This document shows, one piece after another, positions 23,754-38,930 of a stretch of DNA of 64,000 nucleotides. The notes beneath the pieces were generated by a model that saw only the letters and a list, made by a program, of their open reading frames with translations, was not told where the DNA came from and did not search any database. The stretch's first letter is position 1, and each line of letters opens with the position of its first letter. The position numbers were made by a program, and so were the translations under genes. This DNA comes from Hydrogenovibrio thermophilus (lineage in GTDB: Bacteria > Pseudomonadota > Gammaproteobacteria > Thiomicrospirales > Thiomicrospiraceae): positions 682,001 through 746,000 of the forward strand of contig NZ_CP035033.1 in NCBI RefSeq assembly GCF_004028275.1, given 5' to 3'.

Positions 23754-23829
23754 TCCCCAATAGTTCAGTTGGTAGAACACCGGACTGTTAATCCGTATGT
23801 CGCTGGTTCGAGTCCAGCTTGGGGAGCCA
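23754..23829 (+). tRNA. tRNA-Asn (anticodon GTT)
   Basis: A complete 76-base cloverleaf: acceptor TCCCCAA/TTGGGGA, D arm GTTC...GAAC, anticodon stem CCGGA/TCCGT with loop CTGTTAA (anticodon GUU), T arm GCTGG-TTCGAGT-CCAGC, discriminator G and an encoded CCA end. Confidence 0.97.
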
Positions 23830-23837
23830 AATTCTTG

Positions 23838-23865
23838 AAAAAGCCGCTTTTATGCGGCTTTTTTT
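23838..23865 (+). terminator. Rho-independent terminator after tRNA-Asn
   Basis: Stem AAGCCGC (23841-23847) / GCGGCTT (23854-23860), six-base loop, flanking A and T runs. Confidence 0.85.
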
Positions 23866-23900
23866 ATTGTTTTTTGTTAGAATTTGGTCTTTCACATTAT

Positions 23901-24013
23901 GGTGACTCTGTTCGTCCCCTCGCGACGATAGGTTGGAAACCCCGCCAGGTCCGGAAGGAAGCAACGGTACCTTCTGATTCGTGCGCCGAGGTCAGGCGGG
24001 CAGGGTCGCCTCC
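23901..24013 (+). ncRNA. ffs: 4.5S signal recognition particle RNA
   Basis: The conserved SRP domain IV is present: GTCCGGAAGGAAGCAACGGTA-type tetraloop/internal-loop core around 23949-23968, flanked by long complementary arms (GGTGACTCTGTTCG... with ...GCAGGGTCGCC). Size near 113 bases and the hairpin topology match bacterial small SRP RNA, which binds Ffh and directs co-translational membrane targeting. Ends are estimated from pairing. As in many proteobacteria it sits just upstream of dnaX. Confidence 0.93.
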
Positions 24014-37163: not shown

Positions 37164-37982
37164 ATGACTGAACAGAATATGAATATTTCGATTGATCGTG
37201 ATCATCGTGGTATGCACTTGGACAACGAAAAAATGGCGATTGAGGTCAAGGATTGGAACCTGTTTTACGGTTCCAAACAAGCCTTGCAGAACATCAATAT
37301 GAAACTGCCGCAAAACCGTGTGACGGCGTTTATCGGGCCGTCGGGTTGCGGGAAGTCCACCTTGTTGCGCTGCTTCAACCGCATGAACGATTTGATTGAC
37401 ATCGTGCGCGTGGAAGGGGAGATGCTTTTGCACGGGGACGACATGTACAGTAAGCACATGGATGTGGCGGCGCTGCGTCGTCGTGTGGGCATGGTGTTCC
37501 AAAAGCCGAACCCTTTCCCGAAATCGATTTATGAAAACGTCTGTTACGGTTTGCGTCTGCAAGGCATCAGCGATAAGAACGTGCTGGATGAAACGGTGGA
37601 ATGGGCCTTGAAAGGCGCCGGACTTTGGGAAGAAGTCAAAGACCGTTTGGACGAGAATGCTTTGGGCATGTCGGGTGGTCAGCAACAGCGTTTGTGTATC
37701 GCGCGTGCCATCGCCATCAAGCCGGAAGTTTTGTTGTTGGACGAACCGACATCGGCACTGGATCCGATTTCCACTTTGGCCATCGAAGAATTGATTTTCG
37801 AGCTGAAAAAGGACTTCACGATTTTGATCGTCACGCACAACATGCAGCAGGCAGCTCGTGTGTCCGATTACACCGCATTCATGTACATGGGAGACTTGAT
37901 CGAATACACCGATACCGACTCTCTGTTCACGAATCCGCAAGTCAAACGTACCGAAGATTACATTTCCGGTCGTTACGGTTAA
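37164..37982 (+). CDS. pstB: Phosphate ABC transporter ATP-binding protein
   Basis: Cytoplasmic ATPase of the Pst importer, 272 residues. Walker [14 protein letters not shown] near residue 57, the PstB-specific [14 protein letters not shown]-loop VFQKPNPFP, signature [14 protein letters not shown] near 172, Walker [14 protein letters not shown] near 192 and the H-loop [13 protein letters not shown] are all present. The N terminus has about 25 extra residues. Its stop codon directly abuts the 164-bp palindromic element that separates it from phoU. Confidence 0.97.
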
Positions 37983-37983
37983 G

Positions 37984-38147
37984 TTGAGAGCTTTACACGA
38001 GATGGGTACACGGCTAAAAATAGCTAAAATCTTCCTGAATGTCGTTGAAAAACTCGTTAATAGCTAGCTATTAACTTCGTTTTCCGCCTGATTCAGAAAA
38101 ATTTTATCTCATTTTTTCCTCGCGTCCCACTCGTGCAAAGCTCTCAA
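37984..38147. repeat. 164-bp near-complete palindrome between pstB and phoU (MITE-like)
   Basis: TTGAGAGCTTTACACGAG starting at 37984 is the inverted counterpart of CTCGTGCAAAGCTCTCAA ending at 38147, with one mismatch. The similarity continues inward, and the exact centre (38065.5) is the 20-bp perfect palindrome GTTAATAGCTAGCTATTAAC. By eye most of each 82-base arm can pair. It has the shape of a small non-autonomous mobile element or ERIC-like repeat. No clear target duplication flanks it and no second copy is seen in the window. RNA from it would form a very long hairpin. Confidence 0.8.
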
Positions 38148-38195
38148 TGTTGAGTATTGAGTTATAGTTATAAGAACAGTCAGGAGAGTCATCAC

Positions 38196-38930
38196 ATGGA
38201 AAAACAAGAATTCAGCTCACACATTTCGGAAATGCTGAACCGTAATCTGGAAGATTTGTTCAACCACATTCTGGAAATGGGCGGCATGGTCGAGCGCCAG
38301 TTTGAAACGGCGTTGGTCGCTTTGGGCAGTGGCGATACCGAAAAAGCGGTGGAAATCATCGCCTTCGACAAAGCAATTAATAAAGCGGAAATGGAAATCG
38401 ACCGTTTGTGCGCGAAAGTATTGGCGCGCCAACAACCGACGGCTTCCGATTTGCGTTTGATCATTGCCGCGATTCGCATCGCCATCGATCTGGAGCGTAT
38501 GGGCGACGAAATCGTCAAGATCGCGAAAATGGTCATCGTGTTCGGAAAAGAGCACCAAGTGAAGTGCGCTGAATTGCCGGGCTACGTTGAATTGATGGAC
38601 ATTTCCACGCGCTCCAACGCCATGCTGAAAACTGCGCTGGATTCTTTTGCTCGCGTTTCCACCGAAGGGGCTGGTAAAATCATTCAGGAAGAAGAATTGA
38701 TCGACGACATTTTCGCCGATGCCATGGCGGATTTGAAAACCTCTCTGAAAGAGATGCCGGATCAAGTAGAATGTCTGATGGAAATGATCATCGCATTGCG
38801 CGCTTCCGAGCGTGTATCGGATCATGCCAGAAACATTGTGGAAAGCATCATCTACCTGGTTCAAGGGATGGATATGCGTAACCTAGACAGCGAACGCTTA
38901 AACGAGTTCTTGAGCGAGCTGGAATCTTAA
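38196..38930 (+). CDS. phoU: Phosphate signalling regulator PhoU
   Basis: A 244-residue helical protein with two PhoU repeats (LFNHILEMGGMVERQFETALVAL...IEIDRLCAKVLARQQPTASDLRLIIAAIRIAIDLERMGDEIVKIAK; second repeat near residues 115-220 with SERVSDHARNIVESIIYL). It links Pst transport activity to PhoR/PhoB signalling and restrains the regulon when phosphate is sufficient. ATG 38196 has an AGGAGA ribosome site; a TTG at 38157 would lengthen it by 13 residues and begin beside the palindromic element. phoB follows after 12 bp. Confidence 0.95.
   Translation: MEKQEFSSHISEMLNRNLEDLFNHILEMGGMVERQFETALVALGSGDTEKAVEIIAFDKAINKAEMEIDRLCAKVLARQQPTASDLRLIIAAIRIAIDLERMGDEIVKIAKMVIVFGKEHQVKCAELPGYVELMDISTRSNAMLKTALDSFARVSTEGAGKIIQEEELIDDIFADAMADLKTSLKEMPDQVECLMEMIIALRASERVSDHARNIVESIIYLVQGMDMRNLDSERLNEFLSELES

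Follow-up and report, generated by a model that had tools for sequence, protein, structure and literature searches.

ERIC elements have a palindromic shape, and both they and the Correia elements have end sequences and duplication rules other than those of the MITE described here, which lies between pstB and phoU of Hydrogenovibrio thermophilus. ISAba12, which has a MITE attributed to it, belongs to the IS5 family. Like the pst element, ERIC and Correia are high-copy intergenic MITEs, and they are reviewed as affecting transcripts (PMC10969869). The Chunjie MITE of Geobacter uraniireducens also lies in a phosphate uptake operon, but according to its description it is set apart from the pst element by its length of 235 bp, by its other host and by being said to disrupt the operon (PMC10969869). 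MITEAba12 of Acinetobacter, attributed to ISAba12, is similarly short and shares identity with the IS in the terminal repeats only; it differs in being mostly 113 bp long, in its ends (GGCTTTGTTGCACAAA), in its 9-bp duplication and in having a known co-resident parent IS (PMC6382973). Some copies of the BrickBuilt MITE of Porphyromonas gingivalis have ends GAGACCTTTGCA and its ends are near those of IS5-family insertion sequences, as for the pst element, whereas it contains a minisatellite, and its flanking duplications vary in length and sequence between copies (PMC4596501).

ISAba23 is described as an IS5-family element of 1249 bp with 16-bp inverted repeats and a 5-bp duplication (PMC4110982). 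The pst MITE has the same lengths of ends and target duplication, but with its 160 bp it shares only the ends with an element that carries a transposase gene. The likeness of the ends was judged on the ISAba23-like elements read here, the ends of which are like GAGACCTTTGCACGA. Searches of PMC open-licence papers brought up no description of the MITE family. The kind of element is well known, and its hairpin shape is unusually well preserved. A high-copy MITE family of sulfur-oxidising bacteria is hereby added with its likely parent named, so that its copies can be annotated and need not be mistaken for regulatory RNAs.

Results

The element between pstB and phoU

The window analysed is a stretch of 64,000 nucleotides of the H. 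thermophilus chromosome. In the initial annotation a near-complete palindrome had been described in it, with 82-base arms around a centre at 38065.5, outer 18-bp ends with one mismatch and a 20-bp perfect core. Comparison of the arms (37984-38065 and 38066-38147) bore out all of these measures, with 17 of the outer 18 bases complementary; over the full arms 58 of the 82 positions are complementary (71%), so the inverted repeat is real and the wording "near-complete" is generous. The RNA of 37980-38151 is predicted to fold at -62.3 kcal/mol against -29.7 (sd 3.36) in 200 shuffles (z -9.7), none of which folds as well.

Comparison with the copies elsewhere in the genome set the true ends at GAGAG...CTCTC (Table 1), and the outermost TT/AA of the previously described arms are flanking DNA, outside the element. 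The boundary at 37984, with which the element had been described as abutting the pstB stop codon, includes some of this flank; there are 3 bases between the stop codon and the element. The two 16-bp ends differ at one base. The right target-site duplication has one extra base relative to the left one, or matches it at 3 of 5 positions when aligned ungapped. With 160 bp, within the 500-bp limit of MITEs, 16-bp terminal inverted repeats and no transposase gene the element has the size and gene content of a MITE, and its G+C content is 0.40 as compared with 0.51 for the window. No Rfam family matched the element at its gathering score, and the matches seen lie far below these scores. At 23754-24005 the window contains a tRNA gene and, 82 bases further on, a bacterial small SRP RNA gene.

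Table 1. Features of the pst locus (window coordinates) and of the IS loci read in other genomes
Feature	Position or locus	Strand	Sequence or remark	Basis
pstB, phosphate ABC transporter ATP-binding protein	37164..37982	+	upstream neighbour	TIGR00972
Left target-site duplication	37981..37985	.	AAGTT; AA is part of the pstB stop codon TAA	5-bp rule from the family in Milos-T2
MITE, non-autonomous	37986..38145	+	160 bp, imperfect hairpin over full length	arm comparison, fold, copies elsewhere
Left terminal inverted repeat	37986..38001	+	16 bp, GAGAGCTTTACACGAG	
Perfect palindrome	38056..38075	.	20 bp, hairpin tip	arm comparison
Right terminal inverted repeat	38130..38145	-	16 bp, GAGAGCTTTGCACGAG on minus strand	
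Right target-site duplication	38146..38151	.	AATGTT, decayed	flank comparison
phoU	38196..38930	+	downstream neighbour	TIGR02135
Contig-end repeats, apparent multicopy IS5-family IS, Methylophilaceae LF-bin-10	L084 6979-7426; L135 1-257; L137 5609-5904			
IS, 1,249 bp	L365		target duplication TATGA	
IS, 1,271 bp	L366		target duplication ATATC; 2 mismatches per end in 12 bases	
IS, 1,204 bp	L368		target duplication AATGG	
IS, 1,203 bp	L369		target duplication TACCT	

Copies and target duplications

Further copies, which the initial annotation had suggested looking for, were sought at the DNA level in the genome itself (one contig, 2.61 Mb): the element has 17 near-complete places, several of them listed on both strands owing to the palindrome, plus fragments and weaker copies. 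The 5-bp flanks were inspected in 19 copies (L001-L017, L019 and L026). In 18 of these, nine matched at 5/5 bases, three at 4/5 and six, including the pst copy, at fewer; the other one, L002, has an insert in its left end and AATAA on both sides, which brings the perfect duplications to 10 of 19. One own copy (L012, 1504-1698) is 195 bp long and carries an additional internal insert with an inverted repeat in it; copies from other species have similar inserts (L100, L149) or one of a different sort (L101).

The family is far more numerous in Thiomicrorhabdus sp. Milos-T2, where 254 + 251 ends (505) with at most two mismatches, against 1 + 0 for a reversed-pattern control, correspond to about 250 copies by end count in a 2.7-Mb genome. 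Pairing of adjacent ends on contig C1 gave 208 elements shorter than 300 bp, of which 103 have a perfect 5-bp duplication, 53 match at 4/5 and 52 at fewer, and when the register was shifted by 1-3 bases only 0-2 perfect duplications were left; 151 ends (three mismatches) had no partner. In the 180 kb of contig C2 examined, six of ten copies have a perfect 5-bp duplication. The commonest size on C1 is 159 bp (n=71), followed by 184 (n=20), 240 (n=11), 204 (n=8), and 160 and 179 bp (n=7 each), and the target duplications are A+T-rich. According to a crude ORF caller none of the Milos-T2 copies of 100-300 bp lies within a called gene, and their gene contexts (122 tandem, 44 divergent, 23 convergent) are near the bp-weighted background; the tandem cases are oriented 70 with the gene direction and 49 against it, with 3 undecided (p 0.066). 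Loci L077, L079, L080 and others of NZ_KL370891.1 (Milos-T2) carry members of the family.

Distribution and empty sites

The MITE was matched in 17 of the 55 genomes searched, the window's own included, and all 17 are within the family of the window genome. No DNA match was obtained in the plasmids or phages searched, and a scan of 17 viral-contig loci for elements of 150-170 bp found none. The pstB-phoU gap was also compared in relatives, as had been proposed. A search of 37 genomes gave PhoU in 31, counting the window genome itself. Among the 30 loci obtained, 23 show a PstB-like ORF upstream, and the remaining seven are uninformative on the gap. Only the window genome and G009, a second species, have the element there; their gaps measure 213 and 215 bp. 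In the remaining 21 loci the gap, taken to where the PhoU match begins, is 18-110 bp long and lacks the element, the best 16-base likeness to either MITE end having 6-10 mismatches; the window gap without the element and one target duplication would be about 48 bp.

Additionally, the two flanks of each of 11 other own copies were joined and used as queries against eight relatives. In G009 seven of the 11 match across the junction and are thus empty (L004, L008, L009, L010, L011, L012, L014; that of L012 has 17 bases fewer and still matches across), two (L005, L015) are filled, the match being interrupted by about 160 bp where a MITE is listed, L003 gave an ambiguous result (222 bp for 180 at 75%) and L007 no match. 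The L004 site is empty also in G002, G006 and G008, and the L008 site in G006 and G008. Judged by its sequence and its copies, the element at the pst locus is a mobile element, a multicopy MITE. The previous designation "MITE or ERIC-like" stands in its first half by the copy number, target duplications and empty sites; "ERIC-like" fits the shape, but the family has 5-bp duplications and IS5-type ends.

The likely parent insertion sequence

The family is defined here by ends GAGA(G/C)CTTTGCACGAG, a length of mostly 159-160 bp and a 5-bp target duplication. The pst copy is very probably a type II MITE that would have been moved in trans by an ISAba23-like transposase of the IS5 family, since MITE and IS agree in their ends and in the length of the target duplication; beyond the ends no likeness between the MITE interior and the IS is visible by eye.

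Three contigs of Methylophilaceae LF-bin-10 break off within a repeat beginning GAGACCTTTGCACGAGCC, and its minus strand resembles the C terminus of an IS5 transposase (Table 1). The peptide of this repeat matched 35 plasmid records, many with an annotated ISAba23-family transposase beneath the match (49% identity), and among 369 genomes of the class 14 had a match to it; the IS end in L084 had no DNA match in plasmids. When 28 loci (L365-L392) were read for paired ends, six had an end pair at IS distance and 22 had none. Four of the six show perfect 5-bp duplications, with lengths of 1,203-1,271 bp and ends 0-2 mismatches from GAGANCTTTGCA, while L367 and L373 have end pairs without duplication. 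L365 equals ISAba23 in length. Its transposase and that of L368 score above the cut-offs of NCBIfam transpos_IS5_4 and Pfam DDE_Tnp_1, with DUF772 also matched.

Within the window's family nine of 62 genomes match the ISAba23-like transposase at E 1e-15, several of these matches being fragments and that of G018 weak (32% identity). One of these genomes, G032, has a 1,251-bp IS (L423) with target duplication AATAA and one end 16/16; L424, L425, L426 and L432 have both ends present and no intact duplication. MITE match rows were found in five of the nine (G410 18, G418 18, G420 10, G405 7, G019 1), and no MITE match in G425, G030, G032 and G018. G410 and G418 contain a full-length IS (337-aa open frame, both ends, target duplication not intact) beside their 18 MITE matches each, so that IS and MITE coexist in some genomes. 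In the eight other genomes with at least nine MITE match rows (G001, G002, G009, G014, G025, G029, G031, G033) the same search found no such transposase.

In the window genome there is no PF01609 match and no match of the ISAba23-like transposase at E 1e-15; the expectation of the initial annotation that the autonomous parent is not in the window agrees with this. A co-resident autonomous IS was looked for in the whole of the window genome and not found, and loss of the parent after the MITE had spread would give the same picture. Both the identity of the transposase that moved the MITE and its absence from this genome are probable.

Several other candidates were considered and rejected. Eight of 37 relatives are positive for PF01609, and none of the 20 loci returned has a matching end pair at IS distance. 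Milos-T2 is reported to be rich in transposases (PMC6501319); its genome gave 22 PF01609 matches, and the alignable ones among the 14 loci compared have other ends. No IS with MITE ends was seen on its contig C1, where nine end pairs 500-6000 bp apart have a perfect duplication; six of them were translated, and by eye their ORFs look like host genes. Near twelve unpaired ends in named loci, visual inspection of the ORFs of at least 110 aa revealed no DDE transposase, though an integrase-like ORF lies about 1.7 kb from the unpaired end of L120, and the 701-bp end pair of L174, with its perfect duplication, has no convincing transposase inside.

Conservation of the hairpin

Of 135 distinct elements measuring 150-170 bp and having acceptable ends, 57 were not first taken from Milos-T2 pieces, and these gave an alignment of 49 rows after eight scoring below 60 to a typed consensus had been dropped (12 own, at least 8 Milos-T2). 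The structure used consisted of 16 terminal pairs and the RNAalifold helices, 51 pairs in total. In the alignment 95.6% of the cells pair, a figure to which the choice of rows by their ends contributes in the terminal helix, 19 pairs are changed on both sides, and doubly changed cells number 137; the rows being related, these cells are not independent events. Shuffles gave 89.3% pairing, 10.8 pairs changed on both sides and 43.1 doubly changed cells (sd 6.0), and slid structures 36-56%, 6-12 and 11-44, respectively. As read from the aligned copies, paired changes maintain the hairpin over its whole length in the different hosts.

In three of the 51 pairs the commonest state is G-T (44, 41 and 49 of the 49 copies), a type of column that RNAalifold favours. 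With these set aside, the deviations from Watson-Crick pairing comprise 42 G-U, 60 A-C and 45 others, and as there is no G-U excess over A-C, nothing here points to selection acting on a single RNA strand. Certain mismatches between facing bases are fixed: T-G at columns 61/105 in 49/49 copies, C-C at 69/97 in 46/49 and T-C at 62/104 in 44/49.

A variant test, which is small, was made in Milos-T2 with the 65 well-aligned copies kept of 78 distinct ones. Private variants number 40 in the 116 stem columns and 15 in the 43 loop columns (p 1.0), while variants common to at least four copies occur in 10 of 116 stem versus 12 of 43 loop columns (p 0.0036). When 17 terminal columns per end were removed, shared variants still lay in 9 of 82 stem versus 12 of 43 loop columns (p 0.023), and private ones, with the same lean, numbered 19 in 82 versus 15 in 43 (p 0.28). 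Shared variants thus avoid the stem and private ones do not significantly do so, from which the stem is read as mattering for which copies spread. Among private changes 41 are on one side of a pair only and 10 on both, five of the latter being doubly changed Watson-Crick pairs private to one copy.

The surroundings of the element

Between 37950 and 38220 no intrinsic terminator was found, and one promoter-like site is at chance level. The insertion between pstB and phoU would predate the separation of the window genome from G009, and it would have duplicated AAGTT, a target that takes in the final AA of the pstB stop codon. A pstB-to-phoU transcript would then contain the long hairpin, and it is conceivable that, as suggested in the initial annotation, its processing by RNase III or the pstB/phoU ratio is affected.

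Discussion

The preservation of the hairpin can be explained in more than one way. The full-length hairpin might itself be a working part of the element, with lineages spreading if compensatory changes preserve their stem, mismatches being fixed at particular places, and not spreading if the stem is lost; the shared variants avoiding the stem point in this direction, and we regard the proposal as tentative and rather doubtful, the more so for the private doubly changed pairs, which favour copying between the arms. If it were true, the element would move via an extruded or single-stranded hairpin, or be recognised or protected by one, in contrast to the movement by the ends alone that is expected of an IS5-type DDE transposase. 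Alternatively the arms may stay complementary because they copy each other, by template switching at quasi-palindromes, and not by selection; this explanation concerns the hairpin and not the MITE status of the element. It is a real possibility, somewhat short of probable: compensatory changes with no preference for G-U are what correction at the DNA level would give, and the five private doubly changed Watson-Crick pairs arise more easily in this way than by two separate mutations, unless the copies concerned are lone survivors of old lineages; nevertheless correction should erase the facing mismatches that are fixed across hosts, and private changes on one side outnumber those on both, only half of which pair. 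The paired changes of the stem raise the question why MITEs of such shape keep the whole palindrome.

The position between two operon genes and the hairpin shape could also suggest a regulatory hairpin native to the operon and never mobile, and in the initial annotation its conservation as part of the operon in different genera, without copies elsewhere, had been named as the observation that would decide for it. Neither half of this holds, since the element has copies elsewhere in the genome, flanked by 5-bp duplications, and is absent from 21 of the 23 readable pstB-phoU gaps; a native hairpin is therefore extremely improbable. It is easier to imagine, though still unlikely, that a MITE insertion was taken over as a regulator of pst, RNase III cleavage or upstream stabilisation setting the levels of pstB and phoU apart. 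The location and the stability of the fold given above would suit such a role, the three G-T-dominated pairs would be tolerable as G-U in RNA, though RNAalifold favours such columns, and Correia elements are described as cut by RNase III and ERIC elements as affecting transcripts (PMC10969869). The same absence from most relatives speaks against it, however, as do the other pairs, which have no preference for G-U over A-C, contrary to selection on one RNA strand, the private mutations of Milos-T2, which do not significantly avoid the stem, and the lack of a terminator at 37950-38220. For the pst operon the element is a natural insertion, any effect of which can be measured.

Elements with the same ends and a length of 138-139 bp were additionally seen in Candidatus Endonucleobacter (L097, L115, L138), Chromatiaceae SZUA-76 (L076, L088, L117) and D96SM.bin.20 (L106, L143). 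They probably represent sister families, MITEs of the same kind of IS; the one interior inspected, that of L115, differs from the pst MITE family, and six of these elements have perfect 5-bp duplications.
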